Shown here one piece after another: positions 20,403 to 33,697 of a DNA stretch of 64,000 bases. Made by a program: the position numbers and the translations under genes. Location: the NCBI RefSeq assembly GCF_014203095.1, contig NZ_JACHIG010000002.1, positions 177,695 to 241,694 of the forward strand, read 5' to 3'. How positions within the stretch are numbered: the first letter of the stretch is position 1; the number at the start of each line of letters is the position of its first letter. This stretch comes from Prosthecobacter vanneervenii (lineage in GTDB: Bacteria; Verrucomicrobiota; Verrucomicrobiia; Verrucomicrobiales; Verrucomicrobiaceae). The notes beneath the pieces are model-generated. The model did no database searches, was not told where the DNA came from, and saw only the letters and a program-made list of their open reading frames with translations.

Positions 20403-21029
20403 CTAGAAGCGGAGCTTGCGGCCAGCGGCGGCGTCTTCAAAGAACTCACTGCTCATGAGGTAAGCACGGTTCGGGTTCGGCAGGGGGCCGTCGTCGATCG
20501 TGGGGAGTGTCTTGCCGATGGTAGCGTCCTCAGGCTGGGAGGGGGCGATGTTAATCGGGGTGCCCACCTTGGTGAGGGAGAAGAGCTTGCGGGCGGTGTT
20601 CATTGGCAGGCGGATGCAGCCGTGGGTGCAGGGATAGGGCTTCACAAAGCCCCAGTGCAGGCCGTAGGCGGGCTTCCACTCCTGCCAGTAGGCCATGGGG
20701 TAGCCGGAATCCGGCTCGCTCACGCGACGCTTGCGCGCATCCTTGTAGCCGATGGTGTAGCTGCCCTGACCGGTGGCTCCGTTCACGCCGACAGCGCATG
20801 GGGAGGCCAGGAGGACCTTGTTCCCTTCCACGGCATACACGCGGCCCGCGCCGGTGCTGACCTTGATCTTCACATTGCCGGGATTGGTCGGCTGCGTCAC
20901 GGGCGGGTCAAAATCATGTCCATAATGGCCGGATTTTTTGACAGCGGCGCAGTTGCTCAGAGAGAGGGCGAGCCCCGCAAAGGCAAGCGCCTTCAGGGAA
21001 CGGCTGAGGGTGGAGTGAGAAGAATTCAT
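20403..21029 (-). CDS. L,D-transpeptidase lipoprotein (YkuD domain)
   Basis: A 208-aa lipoprotein: a signal peptide with lipobox LSLSNC gives acylated Cys27. The YkuD domain occupies the rest, with the catalytic motif THGCIRLP containing His136, Cys138 and Arg140, and an upstream YGLHWG histidine (His125). L,D-transpeptidases form 3-3 peptidoglycan cross-links or attach lipoproteins to the wall, acting in the periplasm. The ATG at 21029 gives a clean signal peptide. It is the promoter-proximal gene of a leftward three-gene operon with ispH and the thioesterase gene, and is divergent from gspE with a 112-bp gap. Confidence 0.88.
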   Translation of the reverse strand: MNSSHSTLSRSLKALAFAGLALSLSNCAAVKKSGHYGHDFDPPVTQPTNPGNVKIKVSTGAGRVYAVEGNKVLLASPCAVGVNGATGQGSYTIGYKDARKRRVSEPDSGYPMAYWQEWKPAYGLHWGFVKPYPCTHGCIRLPMNTARKLFSLTKVGTPINIAPSQPEDATIGKTLPTIDDGPLPNPNRAYLMSSEFFEDAAAGRKLRF

Positions 21030-21141
21030 GGAGAGTTGGCATGTAGCACACGTTTCCATCTGCTCCACCGTTTTTCTTCCTCTCAACTCCCTTGCAGAGA
21101 ACGAGAAACTTTGTCCTCCTTGGTGCGTTGTATCGCCGCTC

Positions 21142-22839
21142 ATGCCTTCACCTACTTTGATCGATGTCCTCGTGCGCACGGCCGCCAGCGCCGGGTGCGA
21201 GGAACCCACGCGCCTGCGCCACACTCTCGAGCTCGCCTCGGACAACCGCCAGCCGCTCATGGATGCACTGGTGGACAGCAGCATGGTGGATGAGGACCGC
21301 TTCTTTGCCCAGCTGGCCACCGGCCTGGGCATGCCCTACTCCGAAGAAGGCGTGGGGGAAGGCGCGGAGGGTCTGCGCAACAACTTCCCCGCCAAGCTGG
21401 CGCTGCGCCACCGCATCTGCCCCCTCCAGGTGACGGGGGGAGATGCCACCATCCTGACGTACAACCCCTTTGACCTCAGCGCACGCCAGGCCGTGGGCCA
21501 GGAACTGCGCAAGCGCGTGCACTGGCAGATCGCCCCGCGCCACCGCATCCTGGAGGCCCTGCATCAGGGCTACGGGGTCGGCGCTGAGAATTTTGAGGAA
21601 CTGCTCGAAGGCCGTGAAAGCGGCGATGACCACGACGACCTCAAGCAGGAAACCACCGTGCTGGATGAGGCGGACGAAGAAGCCACCGTGCTCAACTTTG
21701 TGAACCAGATCTTCCGCGAGGCACTCAAGGAGCGCGCCACGGACATCCACGTGGAGCCGCTGGAGCGTGATCTGCGCATCCGCTATCGAGTTGATGGCAA
21801 ACTGCTGGAAGTGCCCGTGCCGCCAAACATGCGGCTGCTGCAGGCATCACTCATCTCCCGCCTCAAGATCATGGCGCATCTGGACATCGCTGAGCGCCGC
21901 CTGCCACAGGACGGCCGCATCAACCTGGAGCTGGATGGCGAACCCATCGACGTGCGCGTGGCCACCATTCCCAGCGTCAACGGCGAGTCCGTGGCGCTGC
22001 GACTGCTCACCCGCAAGAAATTCGACCTCCAGGCCATCGGTCTGGACCCCGCCACAGAGGCTACCATCCGCAAGCTGCTGGCTGCGCCCAATGGCATCAT
22101 CCTCGTGACGGGCCCAACAGGCTCAGGAAAGTCGTCCACGCTTTACACCTTCCTTAAAGAGCTCAATACCAAGGATCGCCGTATCGTCACTATCGAAGAC
22201 CCCGTAGAAAACAAGCTGGATGGCATCATCCAGATCGCAGTGAAGCCGGAGATCGATCTGACCTTTGCCGCCGGCCTGCGCAGCATCCTGCGCGGTGACC
22301 CTAACGTGATCATGGTGGGTGAAATGCGCGACCAGGAGACCGTAGAGATCGCCATCCGCGGCGCGCTTACAGGTCACCTGGTCTTCTCCACGCTGCATAC
22401 CAATGACGCCGTCAGCGGCATCTCCCGTCTCATCGACATGGGCATTGAGCCCTTCATGATCTCCTCCTCCGTACGCGCCTTCCAGGCTCAGCGCCTCGTC
22501 CGCACGCTCTGCGGTTTGTGCAAGCAGCCCGCGCACCACGAAGACAGCCACCTGCGCACCATCGGCTTCCCGCTGGAGTGGAAAAACAAGCTCTTCAAAC
22601 CCGTTGGCTGCCGCGCCTGCCGCAATACCGGCTTCACCGGGCGCCTGGCCATCATGGAGATCTGCCTCATGACCGAGGCCCTTCAGGAGAAGATCAACGT
22701 CCGAGCCAACACCATCGAGCTCAAGGCCCAGGCCATCAAAGACGGCATGGTGCCCATGCGCCAGTACGGCTTCCGCAAGGCCTCCGAAGGCGTGACAACG
22801 ATCGAGGAAGTGATGACCGTCACGGCCGCCACGGAGTAG
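21142..22839 (+). CDS. gspE: Type II secretion ATPase GspE/PilB family
   Basis: A 565-aa cytoplasmic hexameric ATPase driving pseudopilus assembly. An N-terminal N1E/MshEN-like domain covers roughly residues 1-170 and the secretion NTPase domain the rest. Motifs are the Walker A GPTGSGKS (residues 324-331), Asp box DPVENK, Walker B VIMVGEMRDQET, His box GHLVFSTLHTNDA and the CxxC pairs LCGLC and CRAC of the zinc-binding insert. A Met replaces the usual Ile in the GEIRD-like motif. ATG 21142 is used; upstream in-frame sequence overlaps the divergent promoter. The neighbouring gspF-gspK order supports T2SS rather than type IV pili. It heads the 12-kb operon. Confidence 0.94.
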   Translation: MPSPTLIDVLVRTAASAGCEEPTRLRHTLELASDNRQPLMDALVDSSMVDEDRFFAQLATGLGMPYSEEGVGEGAEGLRNNFPAKLALRHRICPLQVTGGDATILTYNPFDLSARQAVGQELRKRVHWQIAPRHRILEALHQGYGVGAENFEELLEGRESGDDHDDLKQETTVLDEADEEATVLNFVNQIFREALKERATDIHVEPLERDLRIRYRVDGKLLEVPVPPNMRLLQASLISRLKIMAHLDIAERRLPQDGRINLELDGEPIDVRVATIPSVNGESVALRLLTRKKFDLQAIGLDPATEATIRKLLAAPNGIILVTGPTGSGKSSTLYTFLKELNTKDRRIVTIEDPVENKLDGIIQIAVKPEIDLTFAAGLRSILRGDPNVIMVGEMRDQETVEIAIRGALTGHLVFSTLHTNDAVSGISRLIDMGIEPFMISSSVRAFQAQRLVRTLCGLCKQPAHHEDSHLRTIGFPLEWKNKLFKPVGCRACRNTGFTGRLAIMEICLMTEALQEKINVRANTIELKAQAIKDGMVPMRQYGFRKASEGVTTIEEVMTVTAATE

Positions 22840-22874
22840 TGTTGCGCAGCCGTCCCTTGTGAATATCCTACCCC

Positions 22875-23129
22875 ATGACCATCGCCTCCAATCCGCCCAT
22901 TGAGATTCCGTTGGAACGCATGACCGCCCCCCAGAAGTGGGATCTGTTTCAGGTGCTCTGGGATGACCTCAGAGCCAGTGCGGACGACGAAGCTCTCTCG
23001 CCCGAGTGGCATGCAGATGTTTTGCGTGAACGCCTGGAACGCGAGGAGCGGGGCGAGGCCGTCTGGCGCAGCGTGGATGAAACCTTTGATCGCATTCGTG
23101 CCCAGATCGCTCATGGTCGTCCGAATTGA
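22875..23129 (+). CDS. Addiction-module antitoxin component
   Basis: An 84-aa acidic, helical protein whose C-terminal pattern (LSPEWHADVLRERLER, then VWRSVDETFDRI) matches the putative addiction-module component family (TIGR02574-like). These small antitoxins neutralise a RelE/ParE-type toxin encoded just downstream and typically autoregulate the pair. The stop overlaps the toxin start by 17 nt. The start is 35 bp after the gspE stop, so the cassette is embedded in the T2SS operon. Without database comparison the family assignment rests on pattern and on the adjacent toxin. Confidence 0.8.
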   Translation: MTIASNPPIEIPLERMTAPQKWDLFQVLWDDLRASADDEALSPEWHADVLRERLEREERGEAVWRSVDETFDRIRAQIAHGRPN

Positions 23130-23412
23130 GGAAGGAGCAGAACGTGATCTGTTGAGTGGCTTCTGGTTCTATGAGGATCAAGAGCCTGGGATGGGAGACT
23201 ATTGCCTGACCAAAATCCGCGAAGAGATTTTGGAACTGGCCGGGTGCGGCGGTGTTCATCGCAAACGCCACGGCTTTCATTTCTGCCCTGCACGACGCTT
23301 CCCTCATGGCTTTTATTATCAAATCAGCGGCGAGACTGTGAAAGTATACGCCGTTCTCGACTGCCGTCGCAATCCACGCTGGATACGCCGTCGGCTCAAA
23401 GATCGCTCCTAA
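23113..23412 (+). CDS. RelE/ParE-family toxin
   Basis: A 99-aa basic protein with the compact RelE/ParE layout: an N-terminal helix pair (EEGAERDLLSGFWFYE, then LTKIREEILELA) followed by beta strands FPHGFYYQISGETVKVYAVLD and a final basic strand RRNPRWIRRRL. Such toxins inhibit gyrase (ParE) or cleave ribosome-bound mRNA (RelE); sequence alone does not decide which. ATG 23113 lies inside the antitoxin gene, giving coupled translation. The stop is only 9 bp before gspF, so transcription through the T2SS operon must cross it. Confidence 0.82.
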   Translation: MVVRIEEGAERDLLSGFWFYEDQEPGMGDYCLTKIREEILELAGCGGVHRKRHGFHFCPARRFPHGFYYQISGETVKVYAVLDCRRNPRWIRRRLKDRS

Positions 23413-23421
23413 CCCCCAAAG

Positions 23422-24651
23422 ATGCCCGCTTTCACCTACACCGCACTCACCGCCACCGGACAGACAGTCTCGGGCTCGATCACGGTCGGCTCGCGCGCGG
23501 AGGCGTTTCGAAAGATCGAGGCGCAGTCGCTCACACCAGTGAAGGTCACTCAGGAGGAAAAAGCGGGAGCGGCGAAGACGACGAAGAATGTGGACGAAGG
23601 ACCGGTAACGATGAAGCGCGCGCAGCTCATCCTTTTCACCGAAGAGCTGGCAGACCTGCTGGATGGCGGACTGCAAATCGACCAGGCCTTCCGCGTCATG
23701 CAGGAGCGGCAGGAATCCGGAGCGCTGCGCCGTGTGGCCGCCACCATGCGCAATGAATTGCGCGAGGGCTCCTCCGTAGCCAAGGCGCTGCGCAAGGCCT
23801 CCCCCAGCTTTGACGATCTCTACTGCAACCTGGCCGCCGCAGGCGAAGTCAGCGGCTCCCTGCCGAGCATCCTGCGCCGTCTGGCCAACAACCTCGTGGT
23901 TATGGCAGACCTGCAGGCCAAGGTGACTCAGGCCATGATCTACCCGGCTTTCCTCATCGGCGCGTGTGTGGTGCTCATGATTGTGTTCATGACCTTCATG
24001 GTACCGCAGATCATGGATCTCATGGGCAAGAACGGCCAGAAGCTCCCGGCCGCCACGCAGTTGCTCATCAATTTCAACCACTTCATGGGCGAGTGGTGGT
24101 GGGTCATAGGCATTATCATCACCGCCATCGTGCTGACCTTCCGCGGCTACATCTCCAGCCCAGCAGGCCGCATGTGGTGGGATGAGACGAAGCTGAACCT
24201 GCCGCTTTTCGGTCCCATCATGAGCATGCGTTTCTACGCACAGTTTGCCCACTCGCTGGGGAACCTCATCATGAACGGCGTACCGCTGCTCAACAGCATA
24301 CGCCTGGTGTCCAAGATTTCCGCCAATGTCTTCATCCAGTCGCTCCTGGCCAAAGTCACCACCCTCGTCTCCGAAGGTGCTCCACTCTCCAGCACACTGC
24401 GCAAGGTGGGCAGCTTCCCCCTGCTGCTGGCAGACATGATCGCCGTGGGCGAACAGACCGGCCAGTTGGGCAAATCCATGGAAAAATGCGCCGCCCGCTA
24501 CGACAAGGAGCTGGACAAGCGTATCAAACGCATGACCTCGATGATAACGCCCATCATTCTCGTCATCATGGCCGTCATGGTCGGCACCGTGGCCTACTCG
24601 ATTGTCGCCGCCATCGCCCAGAGCGTCACCGGCATTCGTGGCGGCGGCTAG
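23422..24651 (+). CDS. gspF: Type II secretion inner-membrane platform protein GspF
   Basis: A 409-aa protein with two repeated GspF/PilC cytoplasmic domains, each followed by membrane helices. The N-terminal motif is FTYTALTATGQTVSGSI; domain 1 includes FTEELADLLDGGLQ and GEVSGSLPSIL, and domain 2 FAHSLGNLIMNGVPL and GEQTGQLGKSM. Membrane segments lie near residues 175-195, 220-240 and 375-400. It is the platform that converts GspE ATPase work into pseudopilin extraction. At 409 aa it has the usual family length. It follows the toxin gene by 9 bp. Confidence 0.94.
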   Translation: MPAFTYTALTATGQTVSGSITVGSRAEAFRKIEAQSLTPVKVTQEEKAGAAKTTKNVDEGPVTMKRAQLILFTEELADLLDGGLQIDQAFRVMQERQESGALRRVAATMRNELREGSSVAKALRKASPSFDDLYCNLAAAGEVSGSLPSILRRLANNLVVMADLQAKVTQAMIYPAFLIGACVVLMIVFMTFMVPQIMDLMGKNGQKLPAATQLLINFNHFMGEWWWVIGIIITAIVLTFRGYISSPAGRMWWDETKLNLPLFGPIMSMRFYAQFAHSLGNLIMNGVPLLNSIRLVSKISANVFIQSLLAKVTTLVSEGAPLSSTLRKVGSFPLLLADMIAVGEQTGQLGKSMEKCAARYDKELDKRIKRMTSMITPIILVIMAVMVGTVAYSIVAAIAQSVTGIRGGG

Positions 24652-24716: not shown

Positions 24717-25169
24717 ATGAAAATCCGCACACCGCATCATCAGCACCGCTCCACAGCCGCCTTCACGCTCATCGAAATCGTCATCACCCTGACGATCATC
24801 GCCATCCTGGCTTCCGGCTCGATCTACCTGCTCAAAGGCCAGATCGACTCTGCCAAGGACACCCGTGTGGACAGCGACATCCAGGCCATCGGTCTGGCGC
24901 TGCAGTCCTATGAGTCCCGCGCCCTCCGCATGCCCACCACCGAACAGGGTCTGATGGCGCTGGTGGAAAAGCCCACCATCGAGCCCGTGCCTGAAAACTA
25001 CCGCCCCTTCATGGAGGAGCTGCCCAAGGACCCTTGGGGCTCCCCTTACAAGTACCGTTTCCCCGCCCAAAAGTCCAAGAAGCCCTACGACCTCTGGACC
25101 GCCGGCCCTGATGGCGCAGACGGCACAGACGACGACATCGGCAACTGGAAGAAATCAGCGGCCAAGTAA
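24717..25169 (+). CDS. gspG: Major pseudopilin GspG
   Basis: A 150-aa type II secretion major pseudopilin. A basic leader of about 15 residues ends in Ala-Ala before the class III signal FTLIEIVITLTII, with Glu at +5; Ala replaces the usual Gly at -1. The body has the GspG hallmarks MPTTEQGLMALV, LPKDPWGSPYKY and the calcium-site stretch GPDGADGTDDDIGNW. It assembles the periplasmic pseudopilus after cleavage by a prepilin peptidase, which is not encoded here. The start ATG 24717 follows a 65-bp gap after gspF. Confidence 0.93.
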   Translation: MKIRTPHHQHRSTAAFTLIEIVITLTIIAILASGSIYLLKGQIDSAKDTRVDSDIQAIGLALQSYESRALRMPTTEQGLMALVEKPTIEPVPENYRPFMEELPKDPWGSPYKYRFPAQKSKKPYDLWTAGPDGADGTDDDIGNWKKSAAK

Positions 25170-30988: not shown

Positions 30989-33697
30989 ATGCCTCGCCGT
31001 CTTCTTGCCCTTGCCTCCTCAGTCCTCGCTCTCAGCTCGGTGAATGGACAGACCATCGTCCCCCCCGCACCACCTCCTTCTCCAACGCCAGCTCCTGCCG
31101 CCGCAACGCCAGCGGCATCAGACACCCCTGCAGCAGCCCCTGCCGTGGCTGCTCCTGCACCACCGCCCGCTGCCGCAGCACAGGCTCCTGATGCTGCCGC
31201 AGCACAGCCACAGCCTGCAGGGCCTGGTGGCCCCGGAGGTCCCGGTAGCGGAGGATTCCCCCCTGGAGGAGGCCGTGGCTTTGGAGGTTTCCGTCGTGGT
31301 GGCTTCGGCGGTCCCGGAGGTGGTTTTGGCGGAGATGGCGGAGGCCCTCCCGGAGAAGCCGAGTCCTTCCAGATCACGGGAGACAATGTGATGATGCAGT
31401 TTGCCAACAACCCCGTGGCGGACCTGCTGGCCATCTACGAAAAGCTCACCGGCTACACGCTTGTTAAAGACACCAACATTTTTGAGGGTGCCACCATCAG
31501 CCTTGTGACCCCCAAGCAGGTGGCCAAGGCGGAAGCCATCAAGCTCATCGAAGCCTCCTTGCTGGCCAACGGCTACGCCGTTGTGGCAGACCCTGGCGGC
31601 AAGAGCGCCAAGATTCTGCCAGCGCGCAACCAGAGCGCCAATGCCGTGCAGTTCTCTCATGGCGTTCAGTTTTACACCAGCGCCCGGGAGATTCCGGACA
31701 ATGAGAGCATCGTGTCTTATTTCATGAAGCTGGATTTTCTCGACCCCGAGGACGCCGCCACCATGTTCTCCGGACATGTGGGTCTGGGTGCCTACGGCCG
31801 AATCACTCCCGTCACCGCACCTCCTGGCCTGCTCATCACGGAGAGCGCCACGGTGGTGAAGCAGCTCATCGGCATCCGCGAGGCGATCGATCTTGGCGAT
31901 ACCGGCTCCGCCCTCGTCACCAAATTCATCCCCATTAAGTTTGCGGATGCGGCTGTCATCGCCCAGGTCATTCAGGCCACGCTGACCGCCCAGGCTCAGG
32001 AAAAAGAAACCAAGGGTGTCAAGACCATCCGCGGCACTGCTGCCAGCGATGGCCGCGACAAGAGCAGCGGCGACAACAAGCAGCCGTCCGCCCCTCCCGT
32101 ACCGGGCAGCACCTCCTCCCAGAGCCAGAACTCGCAAAATCCCCAGCCCAGCACGCAGGTGGTGGCGGACACGCGCCTCAATCAGATCCTCGTCGTGGCC
32201 TCGCCGCTGGATTACACCTATGTGGCCAGCCTCATCGCTGAATTTGACAAACCTCTGGAAGCCACGGAGCCCTATGAACGCAAGCTCAAGTATGCCGCCG
32301 CCATTGATGTTCTCAGCTCGCTGGTGGACCGCCTGCAAGAAGTGAACGCAGGAACCATCCAGCTTCCGGGGGGCGGCACCATCCAGCAGCAGCGCCAGCA
32401 GGTGCTGGCCACCAACAGTGCCCAGCTGCTCGGCGGCAGAACCACTCAGGGCACCCGTGGCGGCGTCATCGGCAACACCGGTGCCTCAGCCGCTGGCTCT
32501 GATACAGCCAGCACTGCTGGTGGCACTACAGGCTCGACCACGACTACCAGCAGCACCGGCGGCTCGCGTGCAGACGTCGTCTCCGGCCCCACGGAAAACA
32601 ACGCCCCTGTGTCCGTGCTTGTGGGCAAATCCCGTATCGTCGCAGATCCCATGTCCAACACCATCATCGTCATGGGCCGGCAGGAAGAGATCGCCAAAGT
32701 GGATGCGCTGCTCGACAAACTGGACCGCAAGCCCTCCCAGGTTTACCTGGCCACTGTCATTGGCGAGCTCACTCTCACGGATACGCTGCTCACAGGCGTG
32801 GATTATATTTCCTCCCTGACGAACAAGAACTTCACCGCCAGCAGCATCACCAACCGCACGGACATCCTAGGCGGAACCGGGGGGGCTGGGCGGGCCATCA
32901 ATGACCTGCGAAACAACGCCATCACCTCGGCTTTTGGACCGGCTTCAGGTCTGAATTTGTACGGAGCCGCAGGCAGCGGTCTGGGCGTCTTCCTCAATGC
33001 ACTGCAGACCAACAACAATTTCAAAGTCCTCTCCAGACCCTCCATCTTTGCCCTGAACAACAAGAAGGCCGTCATCTCTTCAGGCCGCAAAGTCCCCTAC
33101 CCCGCCAGCACGGTGACCAATGCCGCCAACCTCAATGGCACCGTCACCTCCACCACCAGCTACCTGGACGTAGTGCTGAAGCTCGAAGTCGTGCCGCTGA
33201 TCAACACTGACGGCGAGGTAACCCTGACCATTTCTCAGATCAATGACACACTGATTGGCACGCAGCTCATCCAGCCGAACCTTGTTCCTATCATCGGCAC
33301 CGAGCAGCTCGTCACCTCCGTGACCATCCCGGACCGCAACACCATCGTGCTCGGCGGCCTCATCTCCGAGGAAAAAAACCTCGCTCAAAACGGCATTCCC
33401 GTGCTGGGCAAGATCCCCGGCCTTGGCAAGCTCTTCCGCACCGACAACAACAGCCTCACGCGCAAAGAGCTTATTGTTTTCATTCAGCCACAGGTCGTGA
33501 GCGACAATGGCAGTATTCGCGAGACCTCCCTGAGCGAAGACATCCGCACCACCTCCGGCTCACAGGCCGCACAGCGCTTCCCGCAGGTACCTGCTCCGCC
33601 TGTGGCAACGCCGGTCGAAGTGCCCAAGAAAAAGAAGAACTTCTTCCAGCGCATCTTCAGCCGCAACCAGGGCACCGATCCCAATCCCGAACCGTGA
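30989..33697 (+). CDS. gspD: Type II secretion outer-membrane secretin GspD
   Basis: A 902-aa secretin, longer than the usual ~650 aa. A signal peptide ends near SVNGQ. Residues about 21-123 are Pro/Ala- then Gly-rich low complexity. Periplasmic N domains follow (FANNPVADLLAIYEKLTG, then YFMKLDFLDPEDAATMFSG and LIGIREAIDLGD), with Ser/Gln- and Thr/Gly-rich inserts near residues 340-390 and 480-540. The C-terminal secretin domain has NNFKVLSRPSIFALNNKKA, LKLEVVPLINTDGEV and IPDRNTIVLGGLISEEK with GIPVLGKIPGLGKLF. It forms the outer-membrane channel and is the last T2SS gene here. Confidence 0.92.
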   Translation: MPRRLLALASSVLALSSVNGQTIVPPAPPPSPTPAPAAATPAASDTPAAAPAVAAPAPPPAAAAQAPDAAAAQPQPAGPGGPGGPGSGGFPPGGGRGFGGFRRGGFGGPGGGFGGDGGGPPGEAESFQITGDNVMMQFANNPVADLLAIYEKLTGYTLVKDTNIFEGATISLVTPKQVAKAEAIKLIEASLLANGYAVVADPGGKSAKILPARNQSANAVQFSHGVQFYTSAREIPDNESIVSYFMKLDFLDPEDAATMFSGHVGLGAYGRITPVTAPPGLLITESATVVKQLIGIREAIDLGDTGSALVTKFIPIKFADAAVIAQVIQATLTAQAQEKETKGVKTIRGTAASDGRDKSSGDNKQPSAPPVPGSTSSQSQNSQNPQPSTQVVADTRLNQILVVASPLDYTYVASLIAEFDKPLEATEPYERKLKYAAAIDVLSSLVDRLQEVNAGTIQLPGGGTIQQQRQQVLATNSAQLLGGRTTQGTRGGVIGNTGASAAGSDTASTAGGTTGSTTTTSSTGGSRADVVSGPTENNAPVSVLVGKSRIVADPMSNTIIVMGRQEEIAKVDALLDKLDRKPSQVYLATVIGELTLTDTLLTGVDYISSLTNKNFTASSITNRTDILGGTGGAGRAINDLRNNAITSAFGPASGLNLYGAAGSGLGVFLNALQTNNNFKVLSRPSIFALNNKKAVISSGRKVPYPASTVTNAANLNGTVTSTTSYLDVVLKLEVVPLINTDGEVTLTISQINDTLIGTQLIQPNLVPIIGTEQLVTSVTIPDRNTIVLGGLISEEKNLAQNGIPVLGKIPGLGKLFRTDNNSLTRKELIVFIQPQVVSDNGSIRETSLSEDIRTTSGSQAAQRFPQVPAPPVATPVEVPKKKKNFFQRIFSRNQGTDPNPEP
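31049..31357 (+). repeat. Pro/Ala and Gly-rich low-complexity segment in secretin gene
   Basis: The first 100 mature residues of the secretin are encoded by degenerate CCN/GCN then GGN-rich DNA, including GGPGGPG and GGFGGPGGG units that resemble the tail of the GspJ-like gene 4 kb upstream. Confidence 0.8.

Follow-up and report, generated by a model that had tools for sequence, protein, structure and literature searches.

A probable ParE/PF09720 toxin-antitoxin cassette with a leaderless-type promoter at a recurrent gspE-gspF exchange site in Prosthecobacter

A pair of toxin-antitoxin (TA) genes lies between gspE and gspF of a T2SS operon in Prosthecobacter vanneervenii, which raises the question of whether such a pair is a chance insertion, a regulator of the secretion genes or a passenger that the operon tolerates. 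The locus was studied within a stretch of 64,000 nucleotides of contig NZ_JACHIG010000002.1 (the window, in whose numbering all positions are given) and was compared with related genomes. The pair is probably a ParE/PF09720 type II TA cassette that has its own leaderless-type promoter and occupies a recurrent gspE-gspF exchange site in the genus. As read from sequence, the elements of this interpretation are the anatomy of the cassette, its recurrence, the empty sites, the debris, the conserved position of the promoter, purifying selection among closely similar copies, and cassette bodies that are unrelated or distant in near relatives with similar flanks.

The cassette has the order of a type II TA system, that is a small antitoxin gene first and a small toxin gene overlapping it, here by 17 nt (Table 1). 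The antitoxin gene begins 35 nt after the gspE stop (22839) and the toxin gene ends 9 nt before gspF (23422). The first-pass annotation, made from the letters of the window, had given the two frame lengths, the overlap and both distances exactly, and its statement that no terminator lies between gspE and gspF agrees with a scan of the window, which listed no terminator-like site on the + strand there. The host operon is recognized as a T2SS operon by the Pfam matches of gspE, gspF, gspG and a secretin gene, all on one strand; the NCBIfam scores of GspE (559.5, equivalog cut-off 630.25) and GspF (318.4, cut-off 424) are both below threshold.

Table 1. Features of the cassette and its host operon in the window, and states of the gspF and thiG junctions in the genomes compared
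Feature or junction state	Position, genomes or loci	Strand	Basis or remark
gspE (T2SS ATPase), left flank of cassette	21028..22839	+	T2SSE 435.8 bits
Candidate leaderless promoter	22842..22869	+	Pattern scoring; TTGCGC 22842-22847, 16-nt spacer, TATCCT 22864-22869, 5 nt to ATG 22875
Antitoxin gene, 84 aa, PF09720 (Unstab_antitox)	22875..23129	+	ORF and Pfam
ParE-fold toxin gene, 99 aa	23113..23412	+	ORF and predicted structure
gspF (T2SS platform protein), right flank of cassette	23422..24651	+	T2SSF 175.4 bits
gspG, downstream of gspF	24717..25169	+	PF08334
gspD-type secretin gene, downstream of gspF	30989..33697	+	PF00263
Type A TA (10)	G000, G002, G030, G032, G027, G021, G436, G236, G439, G445		
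Type B TA (9)	G029, G012, G031, G018, G009, G023, G003, G438, G442		
Frameshifted type B	G033		
Debris	G015, G026, G010, G437		G437: antitoxin homologue without toxin
PF05635 23S-IVP gene instead of TA (2)	G013 (L034), G005 (L074)		Pfam
Empty, gap of 35-68 bp (10)	G001, G004, G017, G008, G011, G444, G019, G024, G006, G440		
152-bp gap of unidentified content	G034		
No gspE upstream, no TA by the queries used (6)	G007, G014, G016, G028, G025, G247		
Loci without gspE upstream of gspF	L168-L174, L283, L289, L290		
thiG-associated loci	L158-L162, L164-L166, L028, L293-L322		

By its sequence, the antitoxin is a borderline member of PF09720 when taken alone (23.2 bits against a cut-off of 23.3; 23.6 bits with its in-frame neighbours) and a clear member when taken with its relatives, and all 11 aligned junction antitoxins match this family (E ≤ 0.1; best 3.3e-9). 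The genome of P. vanneervenii itself has 12 PF09720 matches at E ≤ 0.01. The ParD model PF09386 gives the window antitoxin only 13.0 bits (cut-off 27.3); a PDB sequence search returned nothing useful for it, and NCBIfam gave no match. For the window toxin there was no Pfam or NCBIfam match at E ≤ 1, and the PDB sequence search returned weak matches only (8c26, a ParE2, at E 0.089). PF05016 is matched by six of 13 aligned junction toxins (E ≤ 0.1; best 8.3e-8), the window toxin not being among them, and NCBIfam gave these 13 two weak single matches only. The AlphaFold model of the window toxin (pLDDT 94.4) finds ParE chains as its best Foldseek matches, and VIA-align places it on 6xrw_A with a Z of 13.5 and an rmsd of 2.0 over 87 residues, the listed ParE chains being 15-19% identical to the toxin in structural alignment. 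The predicted fold is that of ParE, and of the earlier label, RelE/ParE-type toxin, only the ParE part is kept. PADLOC gave no match for the window toxin or antitoxin. Toxin and antitoxin are both open frames in the 17 assembled cassettes.

The genus was sampled with 48 genomes, mostly draft MAGs, and 44 of them contain this gspF at E ≤ 1e-140; G022, G435 and G441 lack it at that threshold and G020 has gspE only. Toxin homologues stand directly upstream of gspF in many of the 56 genomes searched, and TA genes or TA debris are present at the junction in 24 of the 44 genus genomes (Table 1). Within type B the antitoxin is frameshifted in G009, and in G442 the toxin ends at a contig end. In 14 of the 17 assembled cases both flanks adjoin the cassette on one contig (in G030 with the start of gspF only), and the cassettes of G002, G023 and G439 are not contiguous with gspE. 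In five of the six genomes that show neither gspE upstream nor a TA (G007, G014, G016, G025 and G028) the TA search used one query of each type, A and B, and a further genome, G443, counts among the 44 and is uninformative, its contig beginning within gspF.

Some junctions record more than one event. In G002, where contig ends overlap by eye, the layers are gspE, remnants of type B antitoxins, an intact type A pair and gspF; in G023 contig ends (L058, L198) suggest tandem cassettes with a repeated 5′ fragment of gspF between them. In the fetched stretches of ten genomes (the six without a TA and G026, G010, G439 and G437) gspE was not found upstream of gspF, so that, to judge from these stretches, the operon is often split at this junction. 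In G026 and G010 the TA debris has been left beside gspF and gspE lies elsewhere. Where the PF05635 gene takes the place of the TA (G013, G005), GGTGGGCAGTGG-like inverted repeats can be seen by eye on both sides of it.

The proposal that a TA cassette had been inserted into a T2SS operon is borne out by relatives in which the site is empty. As is seen with intercistronic TA insertions, the undisturbed operon exists among relatives, here in 10 of 44, and the site also takes another element, the PF05635 gene. Because the orthologous junction of other species again has both genes, with dN/dS of 0.05-0.21 in six close pairs, the sequences indicate that the TA pair at gspE-gspF is more than chance. 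The junction is a recurrent site, and since close relatives have other versions, remnants, another insert or nothing there, it looks like a standing exchange site and not like the place of a chance insertion.

At the next junction of the operon, gspF-gspG, a TA was found in none of the 37 loci examined, 35 of which leave no room for it (gaps of -4 to 143 bp). Between gspF and gspG of G013 (L034) and G021 (L040) there is an unrelated ORF of about 190-210 aa, with hydrophobic stretches recognized by eye. Among 57 other gspE/gspF-type loci that were fetched, a gspE homologue is adjacent in 48, and 46 of these have a gap of at most 150 bp, in keeping with the earlier statement that gspE normally runs directly into gspF; of the other two, one has 235 bp without a TA and one (G052) has a TA. 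The TA of G052 (L128), a genome from a different family of the order, occupies a paralogous gspE-gspF junction, and the toxin groups with non-junction toxins in the toxin tree (support 99/98), which argues for an independent insertion. In the phylum sample of 60 fetched loci gspF adjoins a TA only in this genus, and in G337 (L238, L252) a gspF homologue is near a TA, not adjacent to it. Antitoxin matches at E ≤ 1e-10 occur in 45 of 387 phylum genomes; the match begins at the first position of the profile in only three of them, all from this genus. In the literature, no title on a TA inside a T2SS operon was present among the matches listed.

ParE-type toxins also precede thiG, by 3-51 nt in the nine loci measured. 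Of 46 thiG loci found 30 were examined, and these comprise 16 with a toxin homologue (one truncated), one with an antitoxin remnant, one with a 367-bp gap without a TA, and 12 that are empty. A chlorite-dismutase-family gene is upstream in all 30; in L158 Pfam recognizes ThiG, Chlor_dismutase and one PF05016 toxin. The thiG locus of the P. vanneervenii genome is empty. In three genomes, G019 (L021), G033 (L025) and G022 (L155), an opcA-like gene follows a ParE-like toxin at a distance of 5 nt, with a small ORF upstream of the toxin; OpcA and an upstream zwf are supported by Pfam for L021 only, and the small ORF of L021 has no Pfam match.

The replacement of cassettes can be followed in near pairs, that is cassettes with the first 240 nt of gspF 78-96% identical (n = 34), when the body is defined as the stretch from antitoxin nt 60 to the toxin end; pairs with G030 were omitted from these comparisons and from the gspF correlation on account of contig ends. 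Body identity is below 62% in 24 of the 34 near pairs (shuffled null 52%); in 11 it does not exceed the highest shuffled value, 55.9%, and in four it is at least 80%. The gspE ends are 79-98% identical in the 21 comparable near pairs. G003 and G438, for example, have a gspE end of 98%, a gspF of 95% and a body of 60% identity, and G439 and G438 have a gspF of 96% and a body of 55%. The promoter and the first 45 nt of the antitoxin are at least 70% identical, with a body below 62%, in only five of the near pairs, and the 34 pairs are not independent of each other. For G029/G000, G012/G032 and G439/G023, sliding windows place one break around antitoxin nt 40-60 and another where gspF starts. Promoter and head identity tracks that of gspF over 16 cassettes (rho 0.40, p 0.001), and no clear tracking is seen for the antitoxin tail (rho 0.05, p 0.27) or the toxin (0.12, p 0.11); head and toxin identity are weakly correlated (rho 0.21, p 0.023), all of these p values being indicative as the rows are related. 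The antitoxin head is common to types A and B, with a mean identity of 62% within types and 61% between them. Taken together, these comparisons indicate that cassette bodies turn over between near relatives.

Inheritance has a share in this pattern as well. On a gspE plus gspF tree of 34 genus rows and four outgroup rows, the junction states require 21 changes against a shuffled mean of 26.4 (0 of 200 shuffles as low); the states are more clustered than shuffled labels and so appear to be partly inherited. The eight empty rows alone need eight changes on this tree and the six type A rows need six, and the tree itself may be scrambled by recombination. Starred sisters with unlike states are G029 (type B) and G021 (type A), G032 (type A) and G017 (empty), and G019 (empty) and G033 (broken type B). 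G236, G436, G437, G438, G439, G440, G442, G444, G445 and G247 are absent from this tree and from the toxin tree, which also omits the frameshifted G033. Type B forms a clade in the toxin tree (100/99), its seven rows all coming from the gspE-gspF junction, and type A comprises six junction rows plus two others (94/90). A single clade for the 13 genus junction toxins is not rejected by the AU test (p 0.085), so that one ancient cassette may have given rise to both types; the same test lends no support to many separate origins of these toxins.

That type A has passed from one gspF clade to the other was also considered and is not supported, the pairs that span the clades being about as diverged as gspF (G236/G027, dN 0.18-0.19 and gspF 0.20; G439/G000, dN 0.20-0.23 and gspF 0.21). 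Because these pairs diverge about as gspF does, the genus may have had both types for a long time, and turnover would then be largely a matter of near relatives. The antitoxin has a dN/dS of 0.05-0.14 and the toxin one of 0.10-0.21 in six close type A pairs, and these copies are thus kept as proteins.

A promoter-like pattern accompanies the cassette. The pattern scored was TTGNNN, a spacer of 15-19 nt and TANNNT, followed by the start codon after 4-9 nt; in the form TTGNNN-N16/17-TANNNT-N5/6-ATG it stands before 20 of 21 junction antitoxins, and TANNNT alone before all 21, the TTG part being absent in G445. Shuffled sequences have the full pattern at 0.2-0.8%, and gspF starts lack it altogether (0 of 70: 0 of 10 at empty sites, 0 of 17 after a TA, 0 of 43 others), TANNNT alone occurring there in none, two and three cases respectively. 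That empty sites keep the TA promoter had seemed plausible by eye and did not hold on testing (0 of 10). As the full pattern is also found at 19 of 26 non-junction antitoxins, it seems to be part of the cassette. In junction copies 5-6 nt separate the end of the -10 box from the antitoxin ATG, a spacing that fits a leaderless transcript. The window copy agrees with the consensus at only 3 of 6 and 4 of 6 positions, a weak match, and was absent from the output of a generic sigma-70 scan. Some antitoxin heads have what may be an operator palindrome, noticed by eye only and not claimed. Since the cassette brings its own promoter pattern, read-out from it into gspF is possible. The first-pass annotation held that transcription of the secretion genes must pass through the TA pair; that view has to be modified, given a promoter-like pattern before nearly all junction antitoxins from which the cassette may itself drive gspF and the genes that follow.

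These features can be combined into a mechanism. The cassette promoter would give a leaderless antitoxin mRNA, the toxin would be translated by coupling through the 17-nt overlap, and transcription would continue into gspF and the pseudopilin genes. The antitoxin-toxin complex would repress the cassette promoter and in this way set part of the expression of gspF and the pseudopilin genes, and homologous recombination in the conserved flanks would bring cassettes in and take them out. The most fitting view of the cassette is that of a selfish or addictive passenger, not of a dedicated T2SS regulator; its strand, spacing and built-in promoter would let it live in the operon without blocking it. 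Because of the promoter position, regulation of secretion by the TA is possible. A more far-reaching proposal, which is put forward only tentatively, is that conserved operon junctions of this genus serve as docking sites in which antitoxin tail and toxin are swapped behind a kept leaderless promoter and head, so that TA diversity would be made in place, with the autoregulated TA promoter gaining control of the host operon's downstream half (from gspF, and likewise thiG).

Several other explanations have to be weighed against the passenger reading. Had the TA been recruited as a dedicated T2SS regulator that senses stress or secretion load and sets gspF onward, the codirectional genes, short gaps and promoter-like pattern in front of gspF would be expected, as would purifying selection on close copies, the restriction of antitoxin matches from the first profile position to three genomes of this genus (of 45) and the derivation of all type B toxin-tree rows from the gspE-gspF junction. 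Such a role is nonetheless quite unlikely, as the operon exists without the cassette in 10 of 44 genomes, distant bodies sit between similar flanks, and ParE-type toxins of the same wider family precede thiG and an opcA-like gene, which are unlinked to secretion. A related option, raised at the outset, is an addiction module that stabilises the secretion operon against deletion. ParE and PF09720 are described in Pfam as families of TA or addiction components, and the 17 assembled cassettes retain open toxin and antitoxin frames; loss nevertheless occurs, as is evident from the empty sites, the frameshifts (G033, G009), the debris (G015, G026, G010) and the toxin-less antitoxin (G437), and ten genomes lack gspE upstream of gspF in the stretches fetched. 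With debris left beside a gspF that has parted from gspE in two of these, a stabilising role is very improbable.

The turnover of bodies could also be taken as an arms race, in which the cassette is an anti-phage module selected for novelty and parked in a conserved operon. Bodies replaced between conserved flanks in near relatives are what a defence exchange locus would show, but the absence of a PADLOC match for either window protein and the low dN/dS in six close pairs make this explanation unlikely. Strictly vertical descent from one or two ancestral cassettes of the genus, with divergence, many losses and little or no exchange, would agree with the AU result for a single clade of 13 junction toxins, with the antitoxin head common to both types, with type A pairs across two gspF clades about as diverged as gspF, and with junction states more clustered than shuffled ones. 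It accounts poorly for bodies below 62% identity in 24 of 34 pairs with gspF 78-96% identical, for starred sisters that are A and B (G021/G029) or A and empty (G032/G017), and for the layered cassettes in G002, and is regarded as quite unlikely.

An exchangeable passenger at a conserved junction, which is the preferred reading, is of wider use. Between similar flanks, one junction shows a series of filled, layered, decayed, replaced and empty states; hemQ-thiG shows filled and empty ones, so that TA entry, exchange and loss become open to comparative study and strain construction. In addition, a TA promoter-like element is placed where it is able to drive the second part of a secretion operon, and this coupling is directly testable.

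Among known systems, the ParE proteins of ParDE (PDB 6xrw, 5czf, 3kxe, 8c26) resemble the toxin in size and predicted fold, whereas the partner antitoxin of the cassette belongs to PF09720 and scores below the cut-off of the ParD model. The toxTA system of Haemophilus influenzae is described as competence-regulated and frequently deleted, with an antitoxin-repressed internal promoter (PMC6957337). It is like the cassette in being a TA tied to the regulon of a pilus-type machinery, with partial or full deletions in many strains, and differs in that the toxin gene is first, the antitoxin is of the HTH-XRE type and the genes are outside a secretion operon, and in that body exchange is not described in the portion of that account drawn on here (PMC6957337). 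In Mycobacterium tuberculosis, transcripts that encode proteins such as TA systems are described as predominantly leaderless (PMC8485053), to which the -10 box 5-6 nt before the antitoxin ATG would correspond; that bacterium is of another phylum, and the leaderless state proposed here follows from sequence position alone.

The closest precedent is provided by the intercistronic TA insertions of Escherichia coli, as covered in the relevant part of a review (PMC7167474): mazEF in relA-mazG, yafNO in dinB-yafP and ccd in folA-apaH. In these cases, as in the cassette, a TA lies between conserved genes, the operon is undisturbed in strains without the TA, and the site takes other elements (PMC7167474); how TAs move is stated there as unknown. 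The host here, unlike those in E. coli, is a T2SS operon. At a single junction, different bodies of one TA lineage turn over from one near relative to the next, in some cases with promoter and antitoxin head retained, and hemQ-thiG provides the genus with another operon junction of similar layout. What is new here is the T2SS site, the leaderless-type cassette promoter, the body turnover with occasional retention of the head, and the parallel site before thiG.
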